A stretch of DNA of 64,000 bases, taken from the NCBI GenBank assembly GCA_036490475.1, contig DASXDT010000001.1, positions 186,001-250,000 on the forward strand. The letters run 5' to 3'. The notes under the pieces were generated by a model. It was not told where the DNA came from. It did not search any database and saw only the letters and a list, made by a program, of their open reading frames with translations. How positions within the stretch are numbered: position 1 is the first letter of the stretch; every line of letters starts with the position of its first letter. The translations under genes were made by a program, and so were the position numbers. This stretch comes from Candidatus Tumulicola sp. GTDB lineage: Bacteria > Vulcanimicrobiota > Vulcanimicrobiia > Vulcanimicrobiales > Vulcanimicrobiaceae. Below are positions 6,718 through 23,047 of the stretch, in pieces.

Positions 6718-6766
6718 TGGTGGGCCATCCTGGTCTCGAACCAGGGACCTCATGCTTATCAAGCAT
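6718..6766 (-). repeat. attL: displaced 3' half of tRNA-Ile
   Basis: This 49-bp stretch repeats the 3' half of the tRNA-Ile gene at 29283-29359, from the anticodon loop to the encoded CCA. The 31 bp from 6736 to 6766 are identical to 29301-29331. Two mismatches fall in the T-loop, leaving all stems intact. It is the left boundary of the integrated element. Confidence 0.9.
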
Positions 6767-6885: not shown

Positions 6886-7082
6886 AACGCGGTATGGAGG
6901 TCGGAAGCCTCATGCTCTCTTAGGCCCTAACCCACCTCCGTTCGCAGGATGCTGACTCACCCTTAGAGCCGGGTTCTCTCGTGAAACGTCGCGGATGGGG
7001 ACCGCATGCTTTTTGGCAGGCAGTCATGTGAGTGCATGAGCTAAGGACCTCATGCCAAGCGGAATCGCCGTATCTGCATCGC

Positions 7083-7111
7083 TTGACCCCCAAACACACG
7101 TTCGATATAAT
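7083..7111 (+). promoter_or_regulatory. strong sigma70-type promoter of a leaderless gene
   Basis: TTGACC (7083-7088), a 17-bp spacer and a perfect TATAAT (7106-7111). The expected transcription start (about 7118-7119) coincides with the ATG at 7119, implying a leaderless mRNA. Confidence 0.7.
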
Positions 7112-7118
7112 CGCGAGT

Positions 7119-7640
7119 ATGAGCCTATTAGATTCACTCGAACAGCGCCGAGTACCGCCGCTCGCCAAAACAATGAGCGTCGTCATGGAACGGCGCGAAC
7201 AAATGAGACTGGACAGAGACGAACTGCTCGAACACACCGAGGAGTTCGAAAAGGACCTAGAGCGTATCCTAAAGCCTTGGGCGCACAGCGTGGACCCGGT
7301 GACTGACCGATTACTGATTGCCGTTGAGGGGGTCACCGGAGCGGCGTGGGGTAGGCGTCTCCGCTTCTACAACGGTCACTTCATCGAGTTTGCAATCAGC
7401 CAAGAGGGTTCGCTGTCGATGTGGACGAGCGCCGATAATGTGCGTCAAGTTTTCGATGCCGGTATGTGCTTCAGGTTCAATGCGGCCGAAACCGGTGGCA
7501 CCTTCGTGTTAGAGACGTTCGAGCAGCACGAGCATCACGGAATTCCACTTTCAAGTATTCTCGACGAACATATTGCGGCGGCCATCAATTTGCCGGAGCT
7601 TATCGAAGACAGCCTCGAACAACGTCCAGAGGGCAAATAA
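7119..7640 (+). CDS. element-encoded protein of unknown function
   Basis: 173 residues from the ATG at 7119 (MSLLDSLEQRRVPPLAK). An upstream in-frame start at 7032 is possible but would lie in front of the promoter at 7083-7111, so 7119 is preferred. The N-terminal 60 residues are charged and helical, the rest mixed (AWGRRLRFYNGHFIEFAIS). No recognised domain. It is the only plus-strand gene in the left part of the element and has its own strong promoter, which fits expression in the integrated state; that role is inference. Confidence 0.6.
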   Translation: MSLLDSLEQRRVPPLAKTMSVVMERREQMRLDRDELLEHTEEFEKDLERILKPWAHSVDPVTDRLLIAVEGVTGAAWGRRLRFYNGHFIEFAISQEGSLSMWTSADNVRQVFDAGMCFRFNAAETGGTFVLETFEQHEHHGIPLSSILDEHIAAAINLPELIEDSLEQRPEGK

Positions 7641-7644
7641 AAAT

Positions 7645-7670
7645 AAAAGCCGCTCTTTAACCGGAGCGGC
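7645..7670 (-). terminator. intrinsic terminator of the leftward operon
   Basis: GCCGCTC/GAGCGGC stem (7649-7670) followed, on the minus strand, by TTTTATTTTTATTT. It terminates the operon whose last gene ends at 7719. Confidence 0.7.
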
Positions 7671-7718
7671 ATAACGGCTTCGAGTCGCTGCTCGAATGTG
7701 CTAAAGGTGACGCGAAAG

Positions 7719-8081
7719 CTATGCCAACCCTTCGAACAATATGTCCGGGCGCATCTCATCGCAACGTTTGTGTAACTGTTCCCCCATCTCCTTAAATATG
7801 TGCACGAGTACGTCTTCAAGGGGTGCAGTGAGTTCATCGTATGGCTTCCCACTCTTTTCGGAAATAACCGGCCGATTAAGTTTCTCTACATCTTTTGTCG
7901 AACGCTTCGCTAATATCCGGCGGTAGGACAGCCTGTCTACTATGAGACGCATGATTCTCTCAACCAACTCAGCCCTATCGACTAATATTTGATAGTTCAT
8001 ATCTTCCAATTTTTTAGTGAAGTTCTTAGGTCCCTCAAACATCGTTATTCTATGCCTTCCGTGTTTTGTTTTTAATGTCAA
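7719..8081 (-). CDS. element-encoded protein of unknown function
   Basis: 120 residues, rich in charged residues (DRAELVERIMRLIVDRLSYRRILAKRS). An internal Met14 (MFEGPKNFTKKL) is an alternative start. No domain recognised. Last gene of the leftward operon; base composition is noticeably more AT-rich than its neighbours, suggesting separate acquisition. Confidence 0.5.
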   Translation of the reverse strand: MTLKTKHGRHRITMFEGPKNFTKKLEDMNYQILVDRAELVERIMRLIVDRLSYRRILAKRSTKDVEKLNRPVISEKSGKPYDELTAPLEDVLVHIFKEMGEQLHKRCDEMRPDILFEGLA

Positions 8082-8165
8082 TTCGTTGTTAGCGGTTGCC
8101 GAGGCCGCTTTCGAACCGAAGAATCGCCACCCGAGTCGCTGCTCGGCATGTCTTGGGATGTGGCC

Positions 8166-8570
8166 TTAGGCGAGCTTGTCGAGTCGCTCGACGATTGCTG
8201 GAGGTATCGCAGCCACGTCAGCCGCGCTGATGCCTTTGCGTTGGGCGACGTTGTTGATGGCAGTCTTGAGTCCAAGCAGCTCGATTTCTGCGCCGCCATG
8301 CAGACCTTCAGCGAGTTCGCTGATGATGCGAGTGCCCTCAGGGTCGGCTGTCCTGTGAAGCGGCCGCATCACGCGCATCGCAATGCTTTTACGAGCCGCT
8401 GCGCGTTGTGCGTCCGTGCTTGTCGCGCTTCGAAGCGTCTCGACTTCGAGTGCGACGACTGCGCGGTCTTGCCGCGTCGCCTTGCGACTCATCTTCTCGA
8501 TGGTCGCCGGGTCAGGGCTGGAGGCGACTTCGAACTGCCGCTGCGCGATGGACTTTGCAGAAGTTTTCAT
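8166..8570 (-). CDS. element-encoded protein of unknown function
   Basis: 134 residues, predicted largely helical with many Ala/Arg/Glu (ARKSIAMRVMRPLHRTADPEG), no recognised family. Its start overlaps the preceding gene's stop as ATGA, so the two are translationally coupled. Confidence 0.6.
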   Translation of the reverse strand: MKTSAKSIAQRQFEVASSPDPATIEKMSRKATRQDRAVVALEVETLRSATSTDAQRAAARKSIAMRVMRPLHRTADPEGTRIISELAEGLHGGAEIELLGLKTAINNVAQRKGISAADVAAIPPAIVERLDKLA

Positions 8571-8887
8571 GCTGTTTCGCCTTTCAAAGCGTCGGGGTTC
8601 ACCTGTTCGAGCATGACGGGAAGCACTACGTCGAGCGAGCCGCTCAAGCGCATGAGTTGTCCGGTCAGCCTGTCGTCGTTGGTTAACTCGTCGAGCGTGA
8701 TGCTACCAAGTTCGGTGAGGCCGAGCGGTTCGAGAACGAGCGCCATCAATTCATTGTGGGCTGTTTTTTCTTCCTCGATGCTGTCGGCAAGTGCCGCTTT
8801 TCGGGTTAGCTCGCGAAACCGCGTTCGGTCTGCCAGTAGAGTCTCGACGGCCCTCTTAAAGAGGACCGCTTCTTCGGGTTCGGTCAT
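8567..8887 (-). CDS. element-encoded protein of unknown function
   Basis: 106 residues, acidic and helical (MTEPEEAVLFKRAVETLLADR). No domain recognised. Coupled by a 4-bp overlap to the gene downstream; separated from the upstream gene by a spacer containing two hairpins. Confidence 0.6.
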   Translation of the reverse strand: MTEPEEAVLFKRAVETLLADRTRFRELTRKAALADSIEEEKTAHNELMALVLEPLGLTELGSITLDELTNDDRLTGQLMRLSGSLDVVLPVMLEQVNPDALKGETA

Positions 8888-8903
8888 GGGTTTGGCTCTT
8901 TCG

Positions 8904-8946
8904 TGCCGCGTCTTGCGGCAGTCGTTGATGACCCTTCAGCAGGGTC
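8904..8946. other. pair of perfect hairpins in an operon spacer
   Basis: TGCCGC/GCGGCA (8904-8909, 8915-8920) and GACCCT/AGGGTC (8930-8935, 8941-8946), each with a 5-nt loop. Neither has a following T-tract. Part of a wider pattern of hairpins in the spacers of this element. Confidence 0.5.
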
Positions 8947-8979
8947 GGTTTAGGTCTACGCCACGCATCCGGCGCGCGT

Positions 8980-9300
8980 CTAAGACGGTGATGGTTGCTC
9001 TGAGCGCTCTTTAAGGTGCGGTGCGAGTATCTCGCGCAGTCGTCTCTCGACATCAGGTCTGGACATCATGCCGCGAATGACCCAGCTAACAACTCGGTAC
9101 GATACACCAAGTTCTTTGCCGAGGTCCGCATACTTGAGGCCGCCGCGTTTGAACGCGTCAGCTAGGTCCCGGTTGGGATTCACGGGACGACCTTGCGGCC
9201 TTGCATCCTCTTCCAGCGCTCGAATCGCTTCGGTAATTTGTCGGGCCTCGCGTCGCTTCGTTCGCGCTTCTGCTTTGAGTTGTTCGATAAGCGCCTGCAT
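8980..9300 (-). CDS. small HTH protein
   Basis: 106 residues. The N-terminal third is a basic helix (MQALIEQLKAEARTKRRE), then a helix-turn-helix-like segment around residues 48-75 (KYADLGKELGVSYRVVSWVIRG), typical of a Cro/XRE-like or Fis-like DNA-binding fold. Its ATG overlaps the stop of the upstream gene (ATGA). Confidence 0.6.
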   Translation of the reverse strand: MQALIEQLKAEARTKRREARQITEAIRALEEDARPQGRPVNPNRDLADAFKRGGLKYADLGKELGVSYRVVSWVIRGMMSRPDVERRLREILAPHLKERSEQPSPS

Positions 9301-9884
9301 CAGATGTCTCTCCAGCTTTTGGCCGCTCGCAGTAGCCCGACCATATCGTCGTCCGGTTGCAGTTTACGGATGCAGCCTCGGAGTTCGACTAGGCTCGGCC
9401 GATAACTAGCGTCGCGTACTGCGCCCGAGATAATGAAGTCGGTTTCGAAAACCGTTTCTTTCAGTAAGCCCCAATTGGGTCGCCCGAGCATCACGACAAC
9501 GTCACGCAGTTCGAATGCGAAAACGAACAACGCCTCGTGCCCAACGCGAACCTCTAGCGAGTTCGCAACGGGTTGGATGGCTTGATACGCCGACGATTCC
9601 TCGACCGACGTGAACGAGTCGCCGGAAACTCGAACGCAGAACGCATTTCGAGCGCGAGCAAAAAGGTTGCCCGCTCCCGTATCAAAGCCCGTTGAGCCAA
9701 GAATCCCAGGTGCAATGCGACGCCAGCAGGACACGTTTGCGGTTTCTTTACGCCAGGGAGGTTGCCCGACGAGTTCGAGACCTTGTAACTCCGTGCCGAG
9801 CGCCGGGAACCGACCGGCCGCAATACGTTCAACCTGGTCGGCGACTCGCGGGATTACCGGAAGAGCGGTTGACGCGGATGTCAC
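9300..9884 (-). CDS. element-encoded protein of unknown function
   Basis: 194 residues, no recognised domain. Mixed alpha/beta composition with a single hydrophobic strand-like stretch (HEALFVFAFELRDVVVML). Overlaps both neighbours by 4 bp (ATGA), placing it firmly in the leftward operon. Confidence 0.6.
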   Translation of the reverse strand: MTSASTALPVIPRVADQVERIAAGRFPALGTELQGLELVGQPPWRKETANVSCWRRIAPGILGSTGFDTGAGNLFARARNAFCVRVSGDSFTSVEESSAYQAIQPVANSLEVRVGHEALFVFAFELRDVVVMLGRPNWGLLKETVFETDFIISGAVRDASYRPSLVELRGCIRKLQPDDDMVGLLRAAKSWRDI

Positions 9885-10330
9885 GAGGTTTCCCTCTCTG
9901 CCCGCTCCAGTGCGACTCTAGCGGTAACAACAAGGTGCGCTGCAGTCAGCGGCACTTGTAGGAGTTCAGGTGTGATAGGCACCTTGGGTGTTAGGATGTC
10001 GTTGAAGTACGCTGCCGCTCGGTCAAGCACGCTCTGCTTTCTTAGCAGGCCGTCCGCATGTCGAGATAGCGTTGAAGCGGATATGCCCAACGCCTTGGCA
10101 ATTTGATAGTCAGGCGTCCCGCTGATGCTCAGCAGTTCCTTGAACAAAGTTGTCGTTTGCACAGTGATTTCCGTTGCATCGCACGTTGCTTCGTGCAGAT
10201 GAAAAAAGAGAGACGCCGTGGACAACGTCCACAACGCCTTCGAGTGATTCGATTGTGAGATTCGTCGCGGACCGACCTGCGCGACAAGCCGGTCCGCTTC
10301 GTGTCGCGGAGTAAACGCGACGTTGAGCAC
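9881..10330 (-). CDS. HTH protein, first gene of the leftward operon
   Basis: 149 residues from a GTG at 10330; the start is uncertain because no clear ribosome-binding site is seen and the first 50 residues are unremarkable. Residues 73-95 (TPDYQIAKALGISASTLSRHADG) are a good XRE-type helix-turn-helix. It probably binds DNA and may regulate the element. It lies about 400 bp downstream of the promoter at 10741-10768, with a hairpin-rich leader in between. Confidence 0.6.
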   Translation of the reverse strand: MLNVAFTPRHEADRLVAQVGPRRISQSNHSKALWTLSTASLFFHLHEATCDATEITVQTTTLFKELLSISGTPDYQIAKALGISASTLSRHADGLLRKQSVLDRAAAYFNDILTPKVPITPELLQVPLTAAHLVVTARVALERAERETS

Positions 10331-10466
10331 GCCACCGACTGCGTGCCCTTCCCCTTCGCTTTGGGAAAAGTATTTGGTCTACGTCGAAGCCTCCGCCGCG
10401 CGGCTGAAGCGTAGCGAAGACTTCGAACGTGACTGTGGCCGAGCCAGACGAATCCAGCTACGGCCG

Positions 10467-10671
10467 TCCGTGACGTTCTGCACCATCACGGAGCATCACA
10501 CGCTCGACTCGTCAGTCAAAAGGAACTGACGACTATGCGGTCGAGCAGTGCGATTGAGGAACGGTACCTCGAAGCCGTTGAGGTACCGTTCGAGCAGATG
10601 CGAGCTTCGGTTTCGCATCCGCAACCGAGGATTGAGCACCCTCGGTTTTCGCGCCCGGAGTTCGGAGCGCA
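10467..10671 (-). other. hairpin array in the leader of the leftward operon
   Basis: Consecutive inverted repeats: TCCGTGA/TCACGGA (10467-10492); 8 bp at 10509-10516 and 10525-10532; 12 bp at 10559-10570 and 10580-10591 (perfect); 7 bp at 10597-10603 and 10613-10619; 8 bp at 10623-10630 and 10640-10647; and an imperfect GCGC stem at 10651-10670. Loops are mostly 8-9 nt. There is no long ORF, so a structured leader or separate RNA is the simplest reading. Confidence 0.65.
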
Positions 10672-10685
10672 AACTTGTTCGGGAA

Positions 10686-10722
10686 TTAAAAAGAGCGAAC
10701 CGGCCCTGTTGCGCCGTCGCTC
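10686..10722 (-). terminator. early terminator just downstream of the operon promoter
   Basis: On the minus strand GAGCGA/TCGCTC (10693-10698, 10717-10722) with inner CGGC/GCCG pairing, followed by TTTTTAA. It begins about 12 nt after the predicted transcription start, so it could act as an attenuator or define a very short RNA. Confidence 0.6.
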
Positions 10723-10740
10723 ATTTCCCCTACCTTAGTC

Positions 10741-10768
10741 ATTATACCACGGAAATCTCAAAAGTCAA
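10741..10768 (-). promoter_or_regulatory. promoter of the leftward operon
   Basis: Minus strand TTGACT (10768-10763), 16-bp spacer, TATAAT (10746-10741). Matches in layout and position the promoter at 20340-20367. Confidence 0.7.
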
Positions 10769-10808
10769 GTCCCATGAGCCGAAAAGCCCTGTGGTTATTG
10801 AGCTTTTC

Positions 10809-10825
10809 CTGAACGGTGTTGAACC
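10809..10825 (+). promoter_or_regulatory. 17-bp motif upstream of the promoter, copy 1
   Basis: CTGAACGGTGTTGAACC, containing two TGAAC half-sites 10 bp apart. A 16/17 match lies at 20464-20480 upstream of the other strong leftward promoter; candidate activator or repressor site. Confidence 0.5.
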
Positions 10826-10859
10826 AAGGCCGTCTGTTTAGACGAGCATTGCGGTCAAG

Positions 10860-10891
10860 ACGGAGAGGTCCTCGACCCAAGACCTCTCCGT
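10860..10891 (-). terminator. hairpin just after the tape-measure gene
   Basis: Perfect 11-bp stem ACGGAGAGGTC/GACCTCTCCGT with a 10-nt loop, 15 bp beyond the tape-measure stop. No T-tract follows on the minus strand, so it may protect the mRNA end rather than terminate on its own. Confidence 0.5.
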
Positions 10892-10906
10892 GTTGTTCGC
10901 CTTTGT

Positions 10907-13900
10907 CTACCGAATCGGACCCGCTCCGACACCACCCTTGTTCGAGCGCGACTGGGCGTTGTAAGCGTTCACGATTTGCGTGAGCAACTTACCGTCGAGG
11001 TAGACTGGCGTGCTAATTTGTAGCTTCAGTTGCGTCAGGCTTGCGCCGGTTGCAGTTCCGTAGCTACCCCGCCCGCCGTATCCAGGCGTTGCTGTTGGCG
11101 AGTATGGTGCGAGTTGCGTGTTGCCAAGTGACGAACCGGCAGCACCGCCAACGACTGCGTCTCCGCCCGCAGAACCTCCACCAGTTACCGGCGAGTTGTA
11201 CGCACCGTATCCAGTTGAGCCGGACATACCGGAAGCCCATCCTTGTTCTTCAGCCGCGAATGTACTGCTGTCCATGCCGGGGGTGTTGTATCCACCCGCT
11301 GCACTTCCGCCGCCATACGAGTTGATGGAGACGATTGGCGAGTTGGTCGCGCCGGTAGCTTTCGCTTGCCATTGCGAGCCCAACTGTTCATAAGCTGTGA
11401 CCGAAATCTGCTTGCCGTTCCACAGAGTAAATTCACCCTGATATTCGGATTTGATTCCAAGTCCGCTCGTACCGAGTGCGAGGATTTGTTTGGAGAGTGG
11501 GTCGTTCGGGTTCTTCTGCGCCCACGCGACCATCTGTTGACTCATCGGCAACGCGCCGTCTGCACGGTTGTATTGCGGTTGAGCGTTGATGGTTACGCCG
11601 TTGTAGGTTCCGGTCGTTCCGTTCATGTTGGACACGAACTGACCGTAGTTCTGCGTGTCGTACACATCTGGCTCGTCCGCTGCGGTTTCATGGTTGCCGA
11701 ACAGGCCGCCAAGAATACCGCCCGCTGCGGGAAGCAACGCACCGATGATTGGCCCGATACCGGGAATCATCGAAGCAGCAGAGCCTAACGCTCCACCGAC
11801 TGCACCCCAATCCGAACTGTTACCGGCACTCGTCTGCTCCATGCCGCCCAAAGCATAGCCTTGAGCCGCACCGCCGATGATGTTGCCAGCGATTTTACCA
11901 CCAGTGGTGGCTTCCAGTTTCTGGAGTATCGGACCTAATGCCGCGCCGAGCGGACCGAGCAGTCCCGAGATGAGACTGAATCCGCTTTGCGTTAATGGCG
12001 AGTTTCCAGCGTCTGCTCCATAACCGGAACCAGACTGACTGTTCGCCATGTCTTGCGAGACTTTTTGTCCGGCCGACACGGCTGTTGCCGTCATCTGAGC
12101 GTCGGAGACTGCTAACGGAGTGGTTGAATCTCCGAGTTGCATTCCGCTCGATTGGTCAACGACCGATACAGCTACTGGGTTGGTATTCGAACCTGCGCCA
12201 GTTGTCTGCCCGTTCGCACCTTGCGTACCGCTCTTATTGTCGTCGGTACCGCTACCCGAGCCGCTTCCCGTAGCGCCCGGCATCTTAGCGACATCGGCTG
12301 CGAACTTTACTTCCCAGGCGTTGAGTTTATCAACGACTTGCGTCTTCGTGTTCTGCAGGATGTCATTCAGTCCATCACGGTTGACTTTGAGCATGTTCTG
12401 TTCAAGGTCGCGCGCTTTGGACGCCGGGTCTCCGAACATCGAGTTCGTGAGATTTTTGACGGTCTGCTGCCACCATGCGGTTACGGTGTTCGTGAGGTAG
12501 TCCTTGAAGAGGGACTGCATTCCCGAAAGTGCCGTTCCGCTGATGGCTTCTTTGTACGCGGCTTCGCGAGTCTGCGCGTTGTTCTGGTTACCCATAAGAC
12601 GCGAGATGGATTGGTCGATTACTTGCTCACCGGCTTTTTCCAGCGCCGACTGCGTCGCTTTGTACGCAATCGAGTTCTGGATTTGTTCCTGTTGAGCGAG
12701 GAGCGGTAGCAGTTGCTGCTGGAGTCCGAGTAGTTGCGTTGCCGACTTCACGCGCTGTTGGTCGGCTTCGGTGAGACCGCCGGTTGTCGCAGCAGTGCTC
12801 TTAACCCATTCGTCGATTTTCTGCAACGAGTCGTCGATGCTGTTGTAACCGTCGATGAGTGTCTTCTGAGCTTGAACCGAACCATCGTCCAGTCCCATCA
12901 ACTTGCCGAGGTCTTCGGCGTTCTTCGATGCGAGCGACCCGATGAGGCCGTCCATGTTCTTGCGGAACTCACTGAGGCTCTTGTCGGCTTCACTCAGGCC
13001 TTGGTTGGCTTTAAGCCCGGCCTTATTGATTTCGACGAGCATCTGAGCGAACACCGCCGCTTGTTTCGGGTCGCTCGATTTGAGCTTCTCGTACAAAGCG
13101 TAGATGGTAGCGCCCATCTCTTTTAAGGTGTTCACCTGACCACCGGCCGTGGCGAGCTTGCCCATCGTCGTCGTAACGTGCGAGAGCGAGTCGTCGAGAC
13201 CGCTGATGTAGAATTGGAATGCTTGCGGTGAAGACATCGCCGGGGCCGACGAGCTTCCTACGCCCTTTACGTCACCGTATCCGAGGAACGACATTGGCAT
13301 CGAGTGGACGCCAGCGATGTGCTTCGGTACGTTCGCAGACAGAGATGACCACGCATTGGCTTCCGCCATCGTCGTGGACTGTGTCTCTTTGAGCTTCTCT
13401 TTCTGCGTGTTGTAGAGTTGAAGGTTGCCCTTAGCCTTGGTGATGGCTTCGTCGGCCATACGCCAGGCTTTCGCTTCAGCGTAGACAGCCGATGAACGGT
13501 CGCCGCCCTTGACATTGCCCTTCGCATCGAGCGAGGCGTGGTGCGTCTTGATTAAGTCTTCGAGGTGCTGCTTCTGAGCGTCGAGAGACTTTATCTCTTT
13601 CTCAGTTGCCGTCTGGCCGTTGTAGATGGCATCGTTCTGCGTTTTGAATGCAGCGGCGAGCTTCTTGACGGTGTCCTCGGTAAAGCCGTTTGCGGCACCC
13701 ACTTTGGTGAGTGTCTTGACGTATTGCTCGGCGGCGTTGGCGGTATCTCTCCACTTGGAGATTTGCGCCATCGCGTCGGCTTTGTCTTTATTGACGGCTT
13801 CAGCAGCGATTTGCTGTTCGGTGGCGACCTTGGGCTTCTTCCCGCCGCCCAGTCCCGCGCCCGGCATGGTCATGCCAGCACCGTTACCGCCCTTGGCTTG

Positions 13901-16189
13901 GTCGAGAAGTTTCTGCAACCACGGTGGAATCTGGTCGAGCTTGTCGTAGCCGGGGACATCACCCGTGTGATGGATTTTGTTGTATTCTTGTGCGAGGAGT
14001 TGTTTGATTAACTCTCCGGCATCGGTCCTGTCATCGTTGGTTGCGTGCGGGTTGTCGTACAACGTCCACATCGCATTGTTAAGTTGCTTCGCCATCGTGC
14101 CACCGTTGGCTTTGATGCGGTCGCGTAGCGCGTTCGCAGCATCACCATCAGGGACGAGTAGCGGGTTCTTGACAATGTCGCCGGTCGTATCGAGGATGCC
14201 CTTACCGCCGCTTTCGGCACCGTGCGTGCCCATGTCAACGGCCGCGTCGATGCGCGACATCTTGTCGAAGTTCTGCAACGCCGACATGGCTGCGTACATC
14301 GCCGCAAGCGGACCGATGGCGCGAATTGCGTTACCGGCAATAGTGCCGAGTCCGGCTGCGAAGGCGCTCAGGCCGCGCGTAGCACTCGCTTCTGCGACTG
14401 CCTGCACGTCTGCCATTGCGACTCCGGCCTTTTCACAGGCCGCCGCGAACCCGCCTAACTGCCAGTTGACTGCTTCGATTTTAGCTTGCAGCATCTGCAG
14501 TGCGGCCTGTTCGCGCTCCATTTGCGCCGTGGCGTCGTTGACGGCCCCGACAGTGTTGAGTTCCGCGTTGACGAAGGTCTGCGCCGAGAGCGCGGCTTCC
14601 GTCTGAGCGCCCTTGAGGACGGTGACGTTGGCCGCAGCAGCAGCCGCAGCGGCTCCCGTACCTTGCAGCATCGCTGCGACGCGAGAGAAGCCGAGTAGGA
14701 AACCGTAAGACACGCCGAGCTTGATGACCGAGGTAGCAGCACCGATGACCGCACCCGAATGCGCGGCCAGCACTGGGAAGAGCGTGCCGGACAGGAACGA
14801 CGCTACCCGCGTTGCGGTCGGGAGAAGTTGCGTACCGAGTGCGAGGTTCAGTTCTTGGAACGATGCCTTCAGACGTTCGACTTGACCATTGTAAGTGGAC
14901 ATTTCCGCCGAAGCGATGAGTTCCAACGTACCTTGTGACTTGCCGCGAATCTGGTCCGCGAGGTCTTTCGTCTGTTGCAATGTTTCGATGAACGTGCGCC
15001 AGGTATTGATGGTCTGCGGTTTGACGCGCAGCAGTCCGTCAGCCTGAGCTTGCTTCAGTTTGTCAACATTGGCAATTGCGGCGTCCATGAAATGCTCGGA
15101 GTCCTGGAACGCGCCGGGTCCGAGAATGCTAATCCACTCTTTGAGTTGCTTGCCGCCCTGGTTGAGCGAACCGAACATCGTCGAAACTTGCGTGCCGACT
15201 TTGCTGCCGGTCTGTCCGAGGTTTTCGATTTGCTTTGCGACGGTCGCGATGATGAGCGCGTCGTCCATGCCTTGTGCGCGCAGCGTTGCGCCCGACTCGG
15301 CCATACCTTCAAAGATGTCGCGAATGCCTTCGTTCTTCGAACTGGTACCCGGTTGAGCCTTAAGCACCGGCGCAATACGCGTCGCAGCATAGGCAATCTG
15401 GTCGTACAGTTTCGGAATCTGTCCGAGCGACAGTCCGAGTTCGTGCCAGATGGAGACAGACTTCTGGTAGACTTCGAGCGAGTCGATACCCGACGCGCGA
15501 TGGAACTTCTCAGCGTCTGCAGCCAGCTTTGCAGCGGCGGCGAGAGCGGTCTGCGAGTCCACGAGCTTGCCGGTGGCATCGTGCATTTGCGAGGTCTGTT
15601 TCGTCCACAAGCCGATGGCTTGCTGAACGTCGGTGATGTCCGAACCCCACTCCTTGGCGATGATGATGGCGTCTTTCAGCGCGGCATTCGTGTCGATTTG
15701 CGCGTTGTAGATACGCTGGAGCACCTGCTCCATCTGGACGTTCGAGGCTTCGTTCAGCGAGTTCATCACTTCGCCGAGTGCCGTGTTGAACGTCTTCATC
15801 ACCAGTTCGTACTCGACGAACTTGAAGACGGTGTTGCCGACGATACGGCCGAGCATATCGAAGGCGTCTTTTTGCTTGCCAACAGCGGCTGCATTGCGGC
15901 TCGCGATGTTGGAGATGTCTGTTAGCCCACCACCGCCATTCGACATACCTGCAGTCGCGTTGCGGCGCTGCGCGTCGGCAATCTTGTTCTCAACGGCCAG
16001 CCGCTTCTCGGCCACCGTGAGCATCGTGTTCTGATTCTTGATGGCCTGCGCTGCGCCCTGATTGGACGAGACAGTGACCTTCTGGATACTGGCAACGGCT
16101 GCGTTCGTGCGCTTGACGAATTCTTGAACGGCCGCATCGGCTTGTGAGGCGTCTACACCAATTGAGAAGAGAAAATCGCTCGCCGCCAT
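10907..16189 (-). CDS. phage tail tape-measure-like protein
   Basis: 1760 residues, by far the largest gene of the element. The N-terminus (SIGVDASQADAAVQEFVKRTNAAVASIQ) is the usual opening of tape-measure proteins, followed by long helical, Ala/Gln-rich repeats. A central part has hydrophobic, probably membrane-active helices (around residues 475-530 and 660-685), then more helices and a Gly/Ser/Asn-rich tail ending in VYLDGKLLTQIVNAYNAQSR, as in phage proteins of this class. In siphophages this protein sets tail length and helps DNA entry; at about 1.5 angstrom per residue it would imply a tail near 260 nm. The neighbouring tail genes normally found with it (chaperones, tube, tip) are not recognisable. 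Confidence 0.8.
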   Translation of the reverse strand: MAASDFLFSIGVDASQADAAVQEFVKRTNAAVASIQKVTVSSNQGAAQAIKNQNTMLTVAEKRLAVENKIADAQRRNATAGMSNGGGGLTDISNIASRNAAAVGKQKDAFDMLGRIVGNTVFKFVEYELVMKTFNTALGEVMNSLNEASNVQMEQVLQRIYNAQIDTNAALKDAIIIAKEWGSDITDVQQAIGLWTKQTSQMHDATGKLVDSQTALAAAAKLAADAEKFHRASGIDSLEVYQKSVSIWHELGLSLGQIPKLYDQIAYAATRIAPVLKAQPGTSSKNEGIRDIFEGMAESGATLRAQGMDDALIIATVAKQIENLGQTGSKVGTQVSTMFGSLNQGGKQLKEWISILGPGAFQDSEHFMDAAIANVDKLKQAQADGLLRVKPQTINTWRTFIETLQQTKDLADQIRGKSQGTLELIASAEMSTYNGQVERLKASFQELNLALGTQLLPTATRVASFLSGTLFPVLAAHSGAVIGAATSVIKLGVSYGFLLGFSRVAAMLQGTGAAAAAAAANVTVLKGAQTEAALSAQTFVNAELNTVGAVNDATAQMEREQAALQMLQAKIEAVNWQLGGFAAACEKAGVAMADVQAVAEASATRGLSAFAAGLGTIAGNAIRAIGPLAAMYAAMSALQNFDKMSRIDAAVDMGTHGAESGGKGILDTTGDIVKNPLLVPDGDAANALRDRIKANGGTMAKQLNNAMWTLYDNPHATNDDRTDAGELIKQLLAQEYNKIHHTGDVPGYDKLDQIPPWLQKLLDQAKGGNGAGMTMPGAGLGGGKKPKVATEQQIAAEAVNKDKADAMAQISKWRDTANAAEQYVKTLTKVGAANGFTEDTVKKLAAAFKTQNDAIYNGQTATEKEIKSLDAQKQHLEDLIKTHHASLDAKGNVKGGDRSSAVYAEAKAWRMADEAITKAKGNLQLYNTQKEKLKETQSTTMAEANAWSSLSANVPKHIAGVHSMPMSFLGYGDVKGVGSSSAPAMSSPQAFQFYISGLDDSLSHVTTTMGKLATAGGQVNTLKEMGATIYALYEKLKSSDPKQAAVFAQMLVEINKAGLKANQGLSEADKSLSEFRKNMDGLIGSLASKNAEDLGKLMGLDDGSVQAQKTLIDGYNSIDDSLQKIDEWVKSTAATTGGLTEADQQRVKSATQLLGLQQQLLPLLAQQEQIQNSIAYKATQSALEKAGEQVIDQSISRLMGNQNNAQTREAAYKEAISGTALSGMQSLFKDYLTNTVTAWWQQTVKNLTNSMFGDPASKARDLEQNMLKVNRDGLNDILQNTKTQVVDKLNAWEVKFAADVAKMPGATGSGSGSGTDDNKSGTQGANGQTTGAGSNTNPVAVSVVDQSSGMQLGDSTTPLAVSDAQMTATAVSAGQKVSQDMANSQSGSGYGADAGNSPLTQSGFSLISGLLGPLGAALGPILQKLEATTGGKIAGNIIGGAAQGYALGGMEQTSAGNSSDWGAVGGALGSAASMIPGIGPIIGALLPAAGGILGGLFGNHETAADEPDVYDTQNYGQFVSNMNGTTGTYNGVTINAQPQYNRADGALPMSQQMVAWAQKNPNDPLSKQILALGTSGLGIKSEYQGEFTLWNGKQISVTAYEQLGSQWQAKATGATNSPIVSINSYGGGSAAGGYNTPGMDSSTFAAEEQGWASGMSGSTGYGAYNSPVTGGGSAGGDAVVGGAAGSSLGNTQLAPYSPTATPGYGGRGSYGTATGASLTQLKLQISTPVYLDGKLLTQIVNAYNAQSRSNKGGVGAGPIR
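13124..13139 (+). repeat. 16-bp palindrome copy inside the tape-measure gene
   Basis: TAAGGTGTTCACCTGA, sharing the core AAGGTGNNCACCT with five other copies in the element. Within a coding sequence it could be a chance match or a stoperator-like site. Confidence 0.4.
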
Positions 16190-16244
16190 GGCCGGACCTC
16201 ATCTGATTGAAACTGCTGCGCCCATAGGCGGCTGTTGAGGGAAA

Positions 16245-16475
16245 CTCTGCGAGAGTGCTGACGCAATGACCGACACATCAGCACTCGCGGCAGAGGGTCG
16301 CGACGAAATGACAACATCGCGACAATGGTGCGCGTCTGAGACGCACCGCCGGGAGGATTTAACCCGGCTTCCTGCGCGTAGAAAGACCGCGCAGAAACTT
16401 TGAATAGAAGCGCCGACGCATGGCCTGCTCACCTTGCGTCGGCGTTCGCCCTTCGCTCCAGGAGTACCGGAGCGA
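16245..16475 (-). other. hairpin array upstream of the tape-measure gene
   Basis: Seven consecutive inverted repeats in the non-coding 16190-16490 gap: CTCTGC plus GAGTGCTGA pairing with TCAGCACTC plus GCAGAG (16245-16295); GTCGCG/CGCGAC (16297-16323); GTGCG/CGCAC (16328-16346); GCCGGG/CCCGGC (16348-16368); CTGCGCG/CGCGCAG (16372-16394); a perfect 10-bp CGCCGACGCA/TGCGTCGGCG (16411-16444); and TCGCTCC/GGAGCGA (16453-16475). Several loops are 9 nt. No ORF or promoter was found in the gap. Confidence 0.7.
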
Positions 16476-16490
16476 GACTTACCTGCGGAT

Positions 16491-16847
16491 TTAGGCCGCT
16501 TCTCGGACTTCGACCGTCACCGTCGCGTCATTCGTGGCGTCGAGATTCACAAGCCTGAACTGCAGCGCGTCCGCAGCTTTGTATTGGTCGAGCGCGACGT
16601 ACTGCTGCGATACGACCGGGGATGCCGAGTTGGCTGCTGGAGCAACGGTTGCGAGGTCGGCGAAGTCGCTGAACGACGTTCCCTCGTCGATGCTGACTCC
16701 GACCTGCAGCTTTACACCCGTCGTCGCACCTGTGGCGTCGTAGTGTGCCAGCAGTGACGCAGACAGAGACGAGAACTTGGCCGCGAGTTGGGTCGCTGGC
16801 AACGTGACCAACGCACCCTTCCCGACGACGCCGGAGAAGGGCGTCAC
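16491..16847 (-). CDS. small protein next to the tape-measure gene, possible virion protein
   Basis: 118 residues from a GTG at 16847 that overlaps the stop of the upstream gene (GTGA). A longer reading from 16991 only adds an out-of-character basic extension that is a shadow of the upstream gene. The sequence looks all-beta (GALVTLPATQ, VKLQVGVSIDEGTSFSDF, ATVTVEVREAA), similar in texture to small phage structural proteins, but no family is recognised. Confidence 0.6.
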   Translation of the reverse strand: MTPFSGVVGKGALVTLPATQLAAKFSSLSASLLAHYDATGATTGVKLQVGVSIDEGTSFSDFADLATVAPAANSASPVVSQQYVALDQYKAADALQFRLVNLDATNDATVTVEVREAA

Positions 16848-17236
16848 TTGCTGGCGCTCTTCGCGTCCGGCTTCTTGGTCTTGCCGGAGTCTGCAACGAT
16901 TTCGATAGTCGGCGAATCGCCCTCGGAAAAGATTTTGAGACGACGGCGGGTCTCGGTGTTCTTCTTGCGGTTCTCGGCGACTAACGCCCACGCTTCATCC
17001 ACGAGGTCGTCATACAGCCGCTTCGGCATGTCTTTATCGCGCTCGGGCATCTCGATGTCCTCGTCCTGCAGTTGGACGCGGTGAATGCTGCTGTTCGGCC
17101 CAACGTCGAACGCGGGAGTCTTTGTCTCGCACATCGCGTCTTGGGATGGCTCCATCCAGTATTTGATGTCGAACATCTGGCCGGTGCCAACGTCGATGAC
17201 GCGGTTTTTGAGAAATCTGATGTCAATGTAAGTCAT
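16844..17236 (-). CDS. element-encoded protein of unknown function
   Basis: 130 residues. N-terminal beta-like part (MTYIDIRFLKNRVIDVGTGQMFDIKYW), then a charged helical C-terminus with a Lys-rich tail. No domain recognised. Translationally coupled to the downstream gene by a 4-bp overlap. Confidence 0.6.
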   Translation of the reverse strand: MTYIDIRFLKNRVIDVGTGQMFDIKYWMEPSQDAMCETKTPAFDVGPNSSIHRVQLQDEDIEMPERDKDMPKRLYDDLVDEAWALVAENRKKNTETRRRLKIFSEGDSPTIEIVADSGKTKKPDAKSASK

Positions 17237-17256
17237 TTCGTGTTACTCGTGTGTGG

Positions 17257-17610
17257 TTAGTTGCTGGCGCTCTCCGCGCTCGTACCGGATACGATTTCCG
17301 GCGTAGGTTGGTCTTGCGTCGCCTCATCGTCGATTTCGACGTGTGCCGCAGAGCCGGAAGCATTTTCAAGCCATAGGCGCAGTACGCGTGTTCGCGGCGG
17401 GAGAGCCCCGAAGTTCACAACGGTCGTCTTCGAGTCGAGCGTGACGCTTCGGTGATAACTGCCGAAGTTGCGCCCATTCTGTGAGGACTGCACACTTAGG
17501 CGGACCTTTCCGGCAGGCGTAGCTCGTGCGGAGAATTGCGTGACGGCGTCGTTGCAGTCGAGACTATGCTCGACCGATTCGCCGGACGCCAAGTTGATGA
17601 TGGTACTCAT
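17257..17610 (-). CDS. small beta-rich protein, possible virion protein
   Basis: 117 residues, probably a beta-sandwich (VRLSVQSSQNGRNFGSYHRSVTL, RVLRLWLENASGSAAHVEI). Its texture resembles the product of 16491-16847, including an SSQNGRNFGSY / SIDEGTSFSDF type strand, so the two may be distantly related. Function unknown. Confidence 0.6.
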   Translation of the reverse strand: MSTIINLASGESVEHSLDCNDAVTQFSARATPAGKVRLSVQSSQNGRNFGSYHRSVTLDSKTTVVNFGALPPRTRVLRLWLENASGSAAHVEIDDEATQDQPTPEIVSGTSAESASN

Positions 17611-17676
17611 GGGGCTCCAAATTGAAGAAGCGCCCGGTGAGAGCGCTAAGTTATAAGCGAGAGTGAACGCGTCGCG

Positions 17677-17871
17677 CTAAACGTCGGCAAGTAGCTTCGT
17701 TAGCTTACGACCAAAGAATTGTTCGAGCTTTATGGCTGTCCCGGAGGTTGGACCGGGGATTAGGCGGCCTTGCTCGATTTTGGAGTAGCTGGAATAGCCG
17801 AGACGCACGCGCTCGCTGACTTCGCGTTGAGTTAGGCCGCGACGCTGCCGCTCGAAAGAAAGTTGTGTCAA
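17677..17871 (-). CDS. XRE-family HTH regulator
   Basis: 64 residues from a TTG preceded by CGGAG at 8 bp. Nearly the whole protein is a helix-turn-helix of the Cro/CI class: LSFERQRRGLTQREVSERVRLGYSSYSKIEQGRLIPG. The size and lack of another domain fit a Cro-like repressor. It may recognise the 16-bp palindromes upstream of the replication operon; that link is inference. Confidence 0.75.
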   Translation of the reverse strand: MTQLSFERQRRGLTQREVSERVRLGYSSYSKIEQGRLIPGPTSGTAIKLEQFFGRKLTKLLADV

Positions 17872-17983
17872 GAGTTGGCTCCGATGAGAATGGAAAGTTG
17901 TCGGCGGCTTCAGGGCGACTAGGACCGCTAATCAGGTGCTAGTTTTAGGCCCCTCACTATAATCAGGCACCCCGGTATATGGT

Positions 17984-18553
17984 TTAGTTGAGGAGTGCCT
18001 CGACCTCATGGTTTCGCCATTTGTCCTTCCTGAAGTACTTGTTCATCTTCTTTCGAAGACGCCTGATGACGTATCGTTGAACCCCTTGGACATGTTTGGC
18101 GGCCTTGAAGGCTTCTGCACCGACTCGCTCTCGATGTCGCTCTGCGGACACCTTAGCGAAGTGCTTCGTGCAGAGCGTCTCGACGTTGTCCAAACTTCGC
18201 GGTTTGGAAGTGTCCACAATCCGCACGAGAAGACGCTGCTTGATACGGTCGCCGATGGGATACTCTGCATTCAGCCAGGCCTGGTAAGGGTCTTGCTCGG
18301 TGTCGTCACGTTCTTCGTTGTGTTCTTCAACGGGCGGTTCACATCGCACGCAGCCGCCATCCCGTTCGATTGCAGCCTTTCGGAGCGCGGAGCCCTTCAG
18401 ATGGCGGCCGGATTTGACTTGGTGCGCTCGCACTTGGCATAGCTGCGAACAGTAACGCTTAGGGCCACGCTCGGGGAAGCTCTCTAAGCACTGACCGGTT
18501 TTGCGAGACTTGTAAGCACACCGAAGATTTTTAGGTTCGTCTTTACTTTTCAC
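17984..18553 (-). CDS. zinc-finger protein with a degenerate HNH-like domain
   Basis: 189 residues from a GTG. The N-terminus has a zinc-finger-like C12/C22/C35/C39 pattern (YCSQLCQVRAHQ). Residues 60-135 resemble an HNH nuclease: ERDGGCVRC (C68, C71), then SLDNVETLCTKHF with N123, C128 and H131. The first His of the HNH triad, normally in a VDH motif, is absent (VRIVDTSKP), so nuclease activity is doubtful. The C-terminus is strongly basic (RRLRKKMNKYFRKDK), fitting nucleic-acid binding. Located directly after the replication gene. Confidence 0.6.
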   Translation of the reverse strand: MKSKDEPKNLRCAYKSRKTGQCLESFPERGPKRYCSQLCQVRAHQVKSGRHLKGSALRKAAIERDGGCVRCEPPVEEHNEERDDTEQDPYQAWLNAEYPIGDRIKQRLLVRIVDTSKPRSLDNVETLCTKHFAKVSAERHRERVGAEAFKAAKHVQGVQRYVIRRLRKKMNKYFRKDKWRNHEVEALLN

Positions 18554-18565
18554 TTTAACACCGGG

Positions 18566-19819
18566 TTAGAACGGAAGCTCGACGACTTCGTTGCCCGCGT
18601 TGATTTCTGCAACAATCTCGCCAAGTCGCCGATGCGTTAGCGCGTCCTTGATTTTCGGTTGGAGCGACTCGGGATACATCGCAAGCTCTGCTCTCCCGGT
18701 GGCGATGGCATCGGCGCACTCGTCGATTTGCTCCTGCGAGTATTCGGGAACCGCCGAGCCCGCACGACGCGCCCGCCCTTCCGCCCGTTTGAATGACTCC
18801 GCACGCGCGGCTACGGTGTGCAGTTTCTCGTCGAACTCGGGCCACCAAGGCTCTACAGGATACCCGGCTTCAATGGCATGGATGTAAAGCGCGGTCGGTT
18901 TCTGCACCGGCTTACCGATAGAGTATTGCCGGGCAATCTTGCGGGGCAGCCAGTGCGCCCACATGTGGCAGAACGCAACGCCTCTGAGCCCCACAAGCCT
19001 GTCCAGTTCGCCTGTGTTCAACGGCTCGCCAATCACCATAGGGAGAATGAGACCGTCGATGTCAGGCTGCAGGTTCTCGAAGTCGTCGCTCGCGAGCGTT
19101 CCGTCCGGCAATAGCAGTTCGGTGCTCACCTTAGGCATGGGTGCCTGATGGTCGCCATCGGTGGACGTGTGCGCCGAGGTCAGCCCGAAGCCAAGGTCTC
19201 CATCGCCAACGCTCGCCCCGGAGCCAGCAGAATTACCTATGGAATGAGACGCGCTCGTTGACTCGCGCTCAAGGTCGGCTTCGCCTCCAGCGTCCAGCAG
19301 AGAAGCAGAATTATCAATAATTGAATTTCTGCTCCCGCCGCCGGTGGTAGCGTCGGTAGGCGAGGTGCCGCCGAGCGGAGCGTTCTTGTTCTCGGTTTTA
19401 TTCTGCTTCGTCTGCTTAGTGGCATAATTGTTCCAGGTTACCTGGCATAATTGTTCCAGGTCATCTGGCACGATTGTTCCAGGTCGCGGACTCACGGACA
19501 GAGCTTCAATCTGGCACAATTGTTCCAGGTCTGCGCGGTTAATCCGATACGTCACCTGGTTACGGCCGTCGCGACCGGCTTCAGACACCGCACCTAAAGT
19601 GAGTAGCCGCTGCAGTGAGTCACGAACAGTCTTACGGGACACTCCCGCGAGTGCAGCGATACGAACTTGGCTCGGCCAGACGTTGTCGCTCTTTCCGAAG
19701 TCGTGCCGGAGCAGCGTAATCAGGACGAGCTTTTCGTTACCTTTGAGAACCTTGGTGTCGAGAACGAAGTTCGGCACCTGCGTGTAACCGCCGAGATAAC
19801 TACGAGGGGCGGTTTGCAT
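18566..19819 (-). CDS. lambda O-like replication initiator with internal origin
   Basis: 417 residues. Residues 10-85 form a winged helix of the phage replisome-organiser type (VPNFVLDTKVLKGNEKLVLITLLRH, then WPSQVRIAALAGVSRKTVRDSLQRL). A low-complexity hydrophilic linker follows (residues 95-240) and a distinct C-terminal domain (GLRGVAFCHMWAHWLPRKIARQYS). The linker-coding DNA holds four iterons at 23-bp phasing and then an AT-rich block, the arrangement of the lambda origin inside gene O. It probably binds these iterons and recruits the host replication machinery. Its start overlaps the upstream HTH gene by 20 bp. No helicase-loader (P-like) gene was recognised. Confidence 0.75.
   Translation of the reverse strand: MQTAPRSYLGGYTQVPNFVLDTKVLKGNEKLVLITLLRHDFGKSDNVWPSQVRIAALAGVSRKTVRDSLQRLLTLGAVSEAGRDGRNQVTYRINRADLEQLCQIEALSVSPRPGTIVPDDLEQLCQVTWNNYATKQTKQNKTENKNAPLGGTSPTDATTGGGSRNSIIDNSASLLDAGGEADLERESTSASHSIGNSAGSGASVGDGDLGFGLTSAHTSTDGDHQAPMPKVSTELLLPDGTLASDDFENLQPDIDGLILPMVIGEPLNTGELDRLVGLRGVAFCHMWAHWLPRKIARQYSIGKPVQKPTALYIHAIEAGYPVEPWWPEFDEKLHTVAARAESFKRAEGRARRAGSAVPEYSQEQIDECADAIATGRAELAMYPESLQPKIKDALTHRRLGEIVAEINAGNEVVELPF
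19305..19332. other. AT-rich block, candidate DNA-unwinding element
   Basis: A run of mostly A/T (19309-19330) bracketed by GCAGAA/TTCTGC inverted arms, about 90 bp from the iterons on the 3' side of the replication gene, as in lambda-type origins. Confidence 0.5.
19421..19530. repeat. four iterons, candidate replication origin
   Basis: 18-bp repeats of the form GGCAYRATTGTTCCAGGT start at 19421, 19444, 19467 and 19513: spacings 23, 23 and 46 bp, i.e. a 23-bp grid with one position empty. Because 23 is not a multiple of three, the repeats are read in different frames (DLEQLCQ, GTIVPD, WNNYAT), so conservation is of DNA, not of protein. Confidence 0.8.
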
Positions 19820-19991
19820 AGAAACCCTGGGGCATAGAGCCCTCGGTCGCGGTCAGGATGCCGGTCCGGTACAGTTCTGATTTCGCTCGGCGGACATTCC
19901 GGTTGGAGCAGCCGATGCGATGCTCAATTTCGGAAACGGTAAGGCCTTCGCGTACAGCGTCGGCAACGCGTTGCAGGAACGAGTCGGTCAT
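19800..19991 (-). CDS. small HTH protein upstream of the replication gene
   Basis: 63 residues. Residues 10-45 (VADAVREGLTVSEIEHRIGCSNRNVRRAKSELYRTG) form a helix-turn-helix. It overlaps the replication gene start by 20 bp. Likely a regulator or accessory DNA-binding factor of the replication module. Confidence 0.65.
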   Translation of the reverse strand: MTDSFLQRVADAVREGLTVSEIEHRIGCSNRNVRRAKSELYRTGILTATEGSMPQGFYANRPS

Positions 19992-20094
19992 TTTGCCGTT
20001 CTCGCTGCATGGGATTGGATGTGGAGAGCTAGGGGCGACGCATCACCGCGCGCGCCCGTTGAGGTCCGCATTCCAGCGGACGAAGGAGTTGTCT

Positions 20095-20292
20095 TCACCG
20101 ATTAACCTGGTGGAGGGCAGTTACCAATTCAGCCCGGTCGAACTTCGGGGTCGCCTGTCGTCCCCGCGTTGATACCGACACGAACCTATACGACAGCTTC
20201 CCCGTCGTCTTGACTATCAGCGCGAACTCTGTGAGGCCGTATGCCCTCGCGCCGTTATGCAGGTCCAAATCGCCGAAGACCTTCGCCGACAA
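20095..20292 (-). CDS. small protein of unknown function, first in the replication operon
   Basis: 65 residues from a TTG at 20292, mixed alpha/beta (LSYRFVSVSTRGRQATPKF). No domain recognised and no clear ribosome-binding site, so the start is uncertain. It follows the promoter at 20340-20367 by about 50 bp. Confidence 0.5.
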   Translation of the reverse strand: MSAKVFGDLDLHNGARAYGLTEFALIVKTTGKLSYRFVSVSTRGRQATPKFDRAELVTALHQVNR

Positions 20293-20298
20293 ACAGAA

Positions 20299-20324
20299 AA
20301 CGATGTCGGCTTCGCCGCATCGTT
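20299..20324 (-). promoter_or_regulatory. leader hairpin of the replication operon
   Basis: AACGATG/CATCGTT, 7 bp perfect, 12-nt loop, located roughly 9-34 nt after the predicted transcription start and ending 6 nt before the first start codon. It could control translation of the first gene. Confidence 0.5.
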
Positions 20325-20339
20325 GAACCTCTCACCATC

Positions 20340-20367
20340 ATTATAACACAGGAATTGCATTTGTCAA
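20340..20367 (-). promoter_or_regulatory. promoter of the replication operon
   Basis: Minus strand TTGACA (20367-20362), 16-bp spacer, TATAAT (20345-20340): consensus hexamers. The same layout occurs at 10741-10768. Confidence 0.75.
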
Positions 20368-20463
20368 GATGCGATGACGCGTAACTATTCCAAAAACCCT
20401 ATATGTCATAGTATCTTTGGCCGTCGCGACCGACTTACTCATCGTTGCTGGAGAGACGTTCGG

Positions 20464-20480
20464 CTGAACGGTATTGAACC
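20464..20480 (+). promoter_or_regulatory. 17-bp motif upstream of the promoter, copy 2
   Basis: CTGAACGGTATTGAACC, differing from the copy at 10809-10825 by one base. Confidence 0.5.
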
Positions 20481-20524
20481 TCGAACGATGTCAACGGTAT
20501 ATTAGCCGACGCCCGGTGCGAGTC

Positions 20525-20746: not shown

Positions 20747-20794
20747 GGCCGCGACCTATTTGTCAACACCTTCGTCAGCCATGGGTAACGCGCG

Positions 20795-21436: not shown

Positions 21437-21526
21437 CGTATCTTCTCCGTCTGGTCGTCGTGGCTAAAGTGGAAGCTGCCTCGGGCCTTTGATGTGCTCC
21501 AACCGCCGAAGCACTCGTGAACTGTG

Positions 21527-23033: not shown

Positions 23034-23047
23034 GTCAGGAGGTTGTT

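Follow-up and report, generated by a model that had tools for sequence, protein, structure and literature searches.

Hairpin arrays precede a small HTH regulator gene in integrative elements of Candidatus Eremiobacterota

In a family of integrative elements of Candidatus Eremiobacterota, strings of consecutive strong hairpins very probably form a repeatedly encountered module with the small HTH regulator gene behind them, and the two arrays found in the 64,000-nt window analysed here are very probably RNAs selected in the sense orientation. Retention of such a string ahead of the same small regulator gene suggests a type of regulatory RNA for which no match was found among described families.

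Hairpin arrays of a tRNA-Ile integrative element

Both arrays lie in a 22.6-kb tRNA-Ile integrative element (6718–29331) of an uncultured soil bacterium of this phylum. The features are listed below in window coordinates.

6718–6766, no strand: left attachment repeat of 49 bp (47 of 49 bases match the right copy)
9881–10168, minus: gene for a small HTH regulator of about 95 aa (weak XRE/CII-like family matches)
10177–10201, minus: imperfect dyad in the interval from the terminator to the HTH gene (read from the sequence)
10201–10239, minus: 13-bp hairpin resembling a terminator, tail CTCTTTTTTC, closing array A (terminator scan)
10211–10730, minus: hairpin array A, 15 consecutive domains, non-coding, sense to the leftward genes (folding; 10205–10735, z −12.2)
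10741–10768, minus: promoter-like TTGACT-N16-TATAAT with TG, 11/12 matches, immediately upstream of array A
10860–10891, minus: lone 11-bp hairpin 3′ of the tape-measure gene (spacer 10740–10906, z about −4.2)
10907–16189, minus: tape-measure-like gene, 1760 aa, between arrays B and A (identity via a G057 protein)
16245–16478, minus: hairpin array B, 7 consecutive domains, which takes up the spacer from the 166-aa gene to the tape-measure gene (16241–16490, z −8.2)
16491–16991, minus: 166-aa gene preceding array B (by eye, a stop-codon-bearing homolog precedes the array in L124)
18566–19819, minus: O-like replication initiator of the element (protein family searches)
20340–20367, minus: consensus promoter-like site TTGACA-N16-TATAAT, 12/12 matches, upstream of the leftward operon
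29283–29331, no strand: right copy of the attachment repeat, within tRNA-Ile

Folding confirmed the hairpins at the positions given in the initial annotation, including the seven back-to-back hairpins of array B, whose minus strand had an MFE of −147.2 vs. −110.8 on average in shuffles (z −7.0, 0/100; plus strand, z −4.9). The hairpins reported for array A at 10467–10722 were also recovered, but about half of the array had been missed. Because 10205–10330 and 10331–10466 each gave z −5.8, array A reaches 10211 and comprises 15 domains; longer segments gave z −9.8 (10331–10740) and z −10.5 (10160–10740). One of the 15 domains is of 4 bp only. The array overlaps the 5′ portion of a nominal ORF (9881–10330), whose real start, judged from homologs, is probably near 10168. 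The description of the stems as perfect holds for their cores only, since G-U pairs also occur in them, and the shorter versions proposed for other spacers were not clearly beyond chance on the transcript strand (7641–7718, z −2.0; 8082–8165, z +0.5; 8888–8979, z −1.7).

Folding strength and strand preference of the arrays

None of 200 dinucleotide shuffles folded as well as array A or array B, the array ends for this test having been placed by eye after folding; the equal folding energy in shuffled controls that the annotation had named as counter-evidence did not occur. Across all eight arrays identified (6–15 domains, 213–531 nt), seven folded far below their shuffles and the eighth, in G021, was beaten by 4 of 200. 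Two of them (G084 and G006_C13) were chosen for strong folding. Four others were located solely via the HTH protein, and their z values (−5.3, −7.1, −2.0, and −4.0) thus provide an independent folding test. Among other spacers of the same elements, 10 of 11 controls were at z −2.7 or weaker. The gap between hairpins was not distinctive, with a median of 2 nt in arrays and host controls alike; pairing strength, not tight spacing, sets the arrays apart.

The arrays were also ranked among 40,002 windows covering both strands, with repeated rows removed, the overlapping L082/L127 and L023/L126 each counted, and z obtained from a GC regression on the first 21,666 windows, the arrays among them. Six of the 11 loci at z −3.8 or below were arrays, and the G021 and G020 arrays did not reach this value. 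The other loci were L021 18201 (a tRNA and a 23-bp hairpin), L132 1851 (tRNA-like by eye, with a 15-bp hairpin), L013 18201, L026 2101, and L129 9651.

As RNA, the arrays fold most stably in the sense orientation. Their stems contain 49 G-U vs. 10 A-C pairs when read in the sense direction, a ratio of 37:6 once the two folding-picked arrays are omitted, and the bias is absent in G084 and G021. When G-U pairing was forbidden and DNA parameters were used, the strand difference vanished. Shuffles, the strand test, and recurrence in related elements all support the earlier proposal that the leftward transcript carries a selected RNA.

As for the second counter-evidence named in the annotation, homologous elements with unpreserved stems, the individual stems are mostly replaced between elements, and what persists is the string of strong hairpins. 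Arrays A and B had nothing in common by BLASTN at E 1, and each is present in one copy in the host genome; no additional copies indicative of a REP-type or dispersed repeat were found there, in line with the annotation's view that the stems differ from one another and are not copies of a mobile repeat. RNAalifold analysis of three alignable tails counted double changes at 9 of 40 pairs, some in badly aligned columns. In the cleanly aligned terminal helix, pairing held in 29 of 30 cells with one double change, and covariation was not significant (159/500 shuffles).

The HTH gene is the constant partner of the arrays

Six HTH gene loci were found among 149 genomes of the phylum, and each of the six is preceded by a spacer rich in hairpins, weakly so in one case. 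An additional element carries an array upstream of a marginally similar HTH gene. All eight arrays sit between genes; their upstream neighbour differs between elements, and the HTH gene stays. The predicted structure of the HTH protein was of low confidence (mean pLDDT 65.9).

A hairpin and U-run stands ahead of the HTH gene in six of seven elements. A terminator-like site was scored there in the window element, G005, G006_C9, and G021, and none was scored in G006_C13, G020, or G084, with a stem followed by a U-run in G006_C13 and G084. These last two share the terminal tract TCTCTCTTTTT with array A. Scans of seven elements found no promoter-like site in the interval from array to HTH gene. 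Dyads resembling that at 10177–10201, a possible operator, were seen by eye in G005, G021, G006_C9, and G020, and none was seen in G006_C13.

Possible roles of the arrays

We tentatively favour a cis-acting leader that controls read-through into the HTH operon, the main rival being an RNA that acts in trans. Under the leader model, polymerase would transcribe the hairpin string and mostly halt at the terminal terminator, leaving a stable RNA of 0.25–0.5 kb, while a regulated fraction would continue through the HTH gene and those that follow it. The hairpins would set this fraction by attenuation or put-like antitermination, and would shield the untranslated stretch against Rho and nucleases. 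In the window element array A would have its own promoter, and the array seems to be split into B and A because the tape-measure gene sits inside the interval. The position of the array resembles that of the terminator and antitermination site which lambdoid phages carry between cro and cII. Consistent with a leader, a promoter-like site starts array A and a terminator-like site ends it. In addition, HK022 put RNA is described (PMC9378689) as a nascent structured RNA able by itself to suppress termination. We count against a leader that the G021 array folds weakly, that array B has no adjoining terminator or promoter match, that G020, G006_C13, and G084 lack a scored terminator, that the arrays are far longer than put and have little common sequence, and that the region holds no excess of promoter-like sites (7 vs. 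5.6 in shuffles) and no more terminator-like sites than shuffles.

Loop words shared between arrays suggest a binding role, which a simple attenuator would not need. Of the 52 loops with 5 nt or more in the eight arrays, 32 are of 7–9 nt (33% in host controls), and CUC occurs in 17 vs. 9.1 expected from within-loop shuffles. Ten loop 7-mers are shared between arrays vs. 1.2 expected; with wider flanks the loop words were weaker (18/2000 for 6-mers, 46/2000 for 7-mers). An abundantly released array might act in trans, its pyrimidine-rich 7–9-nt loops binding mRNAs, for example at Shine-Dalgarno sequences via CUC/UCC, or a protein of the host, a helper phage, or the element. Words common to arrays whose stems differ, the CUC enrichment, and the putative promoter and terminator of array A are all compatible with this role, as is the prediction that the most abundant transcript in PLE satellites is non-coding (PMC7567579). 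However, much of the shared 7-mer signal comes from a single 10-base stretch in array B and G006_C13, the comparison of loop content with the host was unmatched for loop length, no convincing antisense target of the loops was found within the element, and six of the eight arrays lack a scored promoter of their own (one 9/12 site lies inside the G006_C9 array). We regard a trans-acting RNA as possible, if somewhat doubtful.

A passive structured spacer, in which hairpins guard untranslated mRNA from Rho, nucleases, and ribosomes and insulate the HTH gene with no specific partner, is unlikely. It would accommodate the low sequence conservation, the variable hairpin number, and the intergenic location in 8/8 cases, but a single hairpin usually suffices for such protective or insulating roles, 10 of 11 control spacers in these elements are unstructured, and loop words recur across arrays. 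Still more speculative, and rather improbable, is a modular class of string-of-hairpins RNA in which stems are free and selection acts only on the loops and the string architecture. Each hairpin would present one loop address, the loop set would be swapped fast between elements, and the multi-target binder would be encoded with the HTH regulator.

It is very unlikely that the array, terminator, and protein gene represent a type III toxin-antitoxin-like module whose RNA binds the HTH protein. Where a terminator-like site was scored before the HTH gene, the order of parts is that of toxI, terminator, and toxN (PMC5772629), but the arrays lack tandem near-identical repeats of one unit, and the downstream protein, with weak matches to HTH regulators only, is not a ToxN-like endoribonuclease. 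Slighter still is the likelihood of single-stranded DNA hairpins serving replication, transfer, or recombination: these mobile elements do encode replication initiators, but no relaxase was found among the scanned proteins, and the sense G-U bias (except in G084 and G021) and the equality of strands with G-U forbidden under DNA parameters argue against it. Chance or compositional artefact has a negligible probability, since the dinucleotide shuffles and the ranking refute it for arrays A and B, and only the G021 array, on its own, is unremarkable.

Comparison with known structured RNAs

Like HK022 put, the arrays are non-coding structured RNAs transcribed from a phage-like element, and array A directly follows a promoter-like site, as putL follows its promoter. 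A put RNA measures about 70 nt, forms two stem-loops, and resembles its other copies in sequence (PMC9378689), whereas the arrays have many more domains, are several times longer, and share little sequence. Large non-coding RNAs of obscure role from phages or satellites, such as the PLE satellite ncRNAs and GOLLD/ROOL, offer a further parallel; Rfam (GOLLD, ROOL, and others) gave no gathering-score match for the window and six related loci, with sub-threshold matches at E 0.018 and above. The sponge RNAs CsrB and RsmZ are likewise long, with many consecutive hairpins, but GGA occurs in just 2 of 81 hairpin loops of the arrays. No description of hairpin arrays of this kind was found in the literature searched, which consisted mainly of sources other than subscription journals.

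Structured RNAs are normally recognised by conserved sequence or covariation, and the arrays came to light solely through their folding density and the genes around them. Since usable conserved sequence and covariation are missing in them, comparable mobile-element RNAs may escape current methods. Should the array control the HTH operon, an uncultured phylum would possess an attenuation or antitermination device of this kind; should it work in trans, a phage-satellite-like element would encode a regulatory RNA with multiple loops.

The tape-measure gene and coding potential

The arrays flank the tape-measure gene in the window element, as annotated, but this arrangement is peculiar to that element, the constant neighbour being the small HTH gene. 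The gene was not found in the five genomes carrying the other arrays, and at five of the six distant relatives of its protein in other genomes (L009–L013; the sixth is in G093) no window near the gene reached z −3.2. The association of arrays with this gene is incidental. The 1760-aa protein had no match in its own family searches, and its residues 1389–1623 match a 1258-aa G057 protein, which in turn matches PHROG tape-measure families. The tape measure was not found in phage records, and five scans of viral contigs gave no relatives; their queries were the tape measure and four different proteins from the window element or from the related G084 and G005.

A coding role for the arrays was rejected: the only shared peptide was of 16 residues in the homologous G005/G021 tail, along with two weak short matches. 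The G006_C13 array contains a stop-free frame of 172 codons, to which nothing notable matched in other arrays, and it also holds the sole internal repeat, of 26 nt.

Folding of two hairpin arrays on the minus strand

Folding delineated two runs of consecutive hairpin domains, the first directly followed by a small regulator gene (HTH gene, ~95 aa).

9881-10168 (-): HTH gene
10211-10730 (-): array A, 15 hairpin domains
16245-16478 (-): array B, 7 hairpin domains

Base pairs were limited to ≤60 nt, and 200 dinucleotide-shuffled sequences served as the reference; z-scores were -12.2 (sense) and -6.6 (antisense) for array A and -8.2 and -6.8 for array B. Eleven control regions of varied length from these elements, some spacers and some coding, had sense z values between +0.8 and -4.3. 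The most extreme of them was the spacer behind the tape-measure gene, which holds one strong hairpin; the second most extreme reached -2.7. The initial annotation had proposed selected local structure in both arrays, and both indeed fold well below their shuffled controls. Its extent for array B was borne out; array A is longer than described, as the unlisted 10205-10466 is equally structured. On the minus strand, the shorter hairpin versions that it reported in other spacers did not stand out clearly from chance. A lone 11-bp hairpin (10860-10891) lies 3' of the tape-measure gene, in a spacer with a minus-strand z of about -4.

The array and the HTH gene recur together

Two more arrays were singled out by scanning the folding of stretches that had been retrieved for unrelated purposes, one in genome G084 (stretch L021, obtained via a 130-aa protein) and one on contig C13 of genome G006 (stretch L078, obtained via the replication initiator). 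BLASTP showed homology between the HTH gene that follows array A and the gene behind the L078 array (E 1e-14). A search with the HTH gene returned four further loci, bringing the total to 6 loci, spread over 5 of the 149 genomes of the phylum; these four were not selected by folding and therefore provide an independent test.

Sense z of the spacer upstream of the HTH gene
Window: -12.2
G006, contig C13 (L078): -9.7
G006, contig C9 (L124): -5.3
G005 (L125): -7.1
G021 (L126): -2.0 (weak, 4/200 shuffles)
G020 (L127): -4.0

The G084 array (z -8.0) precedes a small HTH gene of only marginal similarity (BLASTP E 0.005). The HTH gene is constant downstream of the arrays and the upstream gene varies, being an XRE regulator, Cys-rich proteins, a 166-aa homolog, a 101-aa protein or the tape measure. 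In the window the tape-measure gene sits within the array interval, and its protein had no match in G005, G006, G020, G021 or G084. By eye, the 166-aa-gene homolog, array and HTH gene of L124 stand in direct succession. An in-frame stop codon was also seen by eye in this homolog before the array (about 11940-12300).

The arrays behave as RNA

Strand-neutral helices of the eight arrays contained 490 Watson-Crick, 49 G-T (sense G-U) and 10 A-C pairs (p 2.7e-7). Without the two folding-picked arrays, G-T exceeded A-C by 37 to 6 (p 1.6e-6), and the window arrays alone gave 19 vs. 4; the bias was absent in G084 (2 vs. 3) and G021 (1 vs. 1). Under RNA parameters, the sense MFE was lower in 7/8 arrays, with antisense slightly lower in G021. 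Under DNA parameters with G-U forbidden, the sense-antisense gap was at most 5.5 kcal/mol, and antisense was lower in 6/8 arrays. These results favour the arrays acting as RNA rather than as DNA; a DNA role is weakened rather than excluded, because G-T wobble occurs in DNA too.

Stems turn over faster than loops

BLASTN found little sequence common to the arrays: the final 96-121 nt of the G005, G021 and G006 C9 arrays, a 26-nt match (85%) of array A to G084, and the tract TCTCTCTTTTT in array A, G006 C13 and G084. G005 and G021 have HTH proteins with 94% identity, and BLASTN aligns their spacers only over this final stretch, which points to a much quicker turnover of the arrays than of the gene. 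The arrays compared were L125 6039-6400 and L126 2515-2727.

Among loops of ≥5 nt, with pairs within the three homologous tails excluded, 24 6-mers and 10 7-mers were shared vs. 7.1 and 1.2 in single-base shuffles (0/2000 each), counts in which overlapping words from one shared stretch enter repeatedly. With wider flanks the test was weaker (5-mers 116, 6-mers 18, 7-mers 46 and 8-mers 3 of 2000). The clearest shared loop stretch, GUCGGUCAUU, occurs in array B and G006 C13 on different stems. Loops were rich in CUC (17/52) and UCC (15/52) and poor in GGA (2/52); the corresponding values in host loops, which are shorter than array loops, were 9%, 11% and 8%. Stems change, and loops change less.

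Transcription signals and possible function

The minus strand of 7000-24000 was scanned for promoter- and terminator-like sites. Promoter-like sites totalled 7 vs. 5.6 in shuffles, which is not above expectation; the two best were:

20367-20340 (-): promoter-like site, 12/12
10768-10741 (-): promoter-like site, 11/12 with TG, directly before array A

The top terminator-like site was a 13-bp hairpin with CUCUUUUUUC (10239-10201), one of 25 such sites with 20.0 expected. G006 C9, G005 and G021 have a scored terminator-like site at the same place; G006 C13 and G084 have a stem and U-run there, and G020 a weak stem and U-run, without a scored site. None of the seven elements has a promoter-like site between array and HTH gene, and G006 C9 has one 9/12 site inside its array.

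We take the array and the HTH gene to form a single module. Polymerase seems to get to the HTH gene by reading through past the array end, so that the array would be well placed to set how much polymerase passes. HK022 put (PMC9378689) and the ToxIN terminator (PMC5772629) likewise set polymerase passage. The main rival is an RNA acting in trans, and array A is the strongest candidate for an RNA that stands on its own; abundant non-coding transcripts are known from satellites (PMC7567579). A passive structured spacer is possible.

No Rfam family matched the window or six related loci at gathering score, all matches being sub-threshold, and searches of an open-access library turned up no such hairpin arrays. 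In contrast to put, ToxIN, CsrB and the Rfam families, the arrays lack at least one tested defining feature of each. We regard the array as a further form of a known kind, structured RNA carried by phage-like mobile elements.

The integrative element

The arrays of the window lie in a 22.6-kb integrative element bounded by a 49-bp repeat.

6718-6766: left repeat copy (47 bases equal between copies)
10907-16189: tape-measure-like gene, 1760 aa
18566-19819: O-like replication initiator
23048-24007: second tyrosine integrase/recombinase, mid-element
27977-29263: tyrosine integrase
29283-29331: right repeat copy, within tRNA-Ile

The 1760-aa gene has no family match of its own; a partial homolog in genome G057 matches tape-measure families and shares its stretch with a terminase gene. 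Besides this gene, the window proteins scanned included no recognisable capsid, portal or terminase; the element could be a decayed prophage, an unrecognisably divergent prophage or a satellite bringing its own tape measure. Five scans of viral contigs returned no relatives.

The second recombinase shares 78-82% identity with copies in G006 (two) and G021 and is better conserved than the other proteins compared; its L078 counterpart lies at 12434-13393. Short direct repeats were seen by eye inside replication initiator genes (window 19423-19530; L078 9282-9340; stretch L085 9640-9725) and resemble an intragenic origin. In lambda O, the origin is located inside the gene. Palindromes of the AAGGTGTTCACCTT type, possibly operator or iteron sites, occur in the window at 20520-20745 (upstream of the leftward operon) and near 13125 and 22785, and one lies in a related element (L124 8163-8178).
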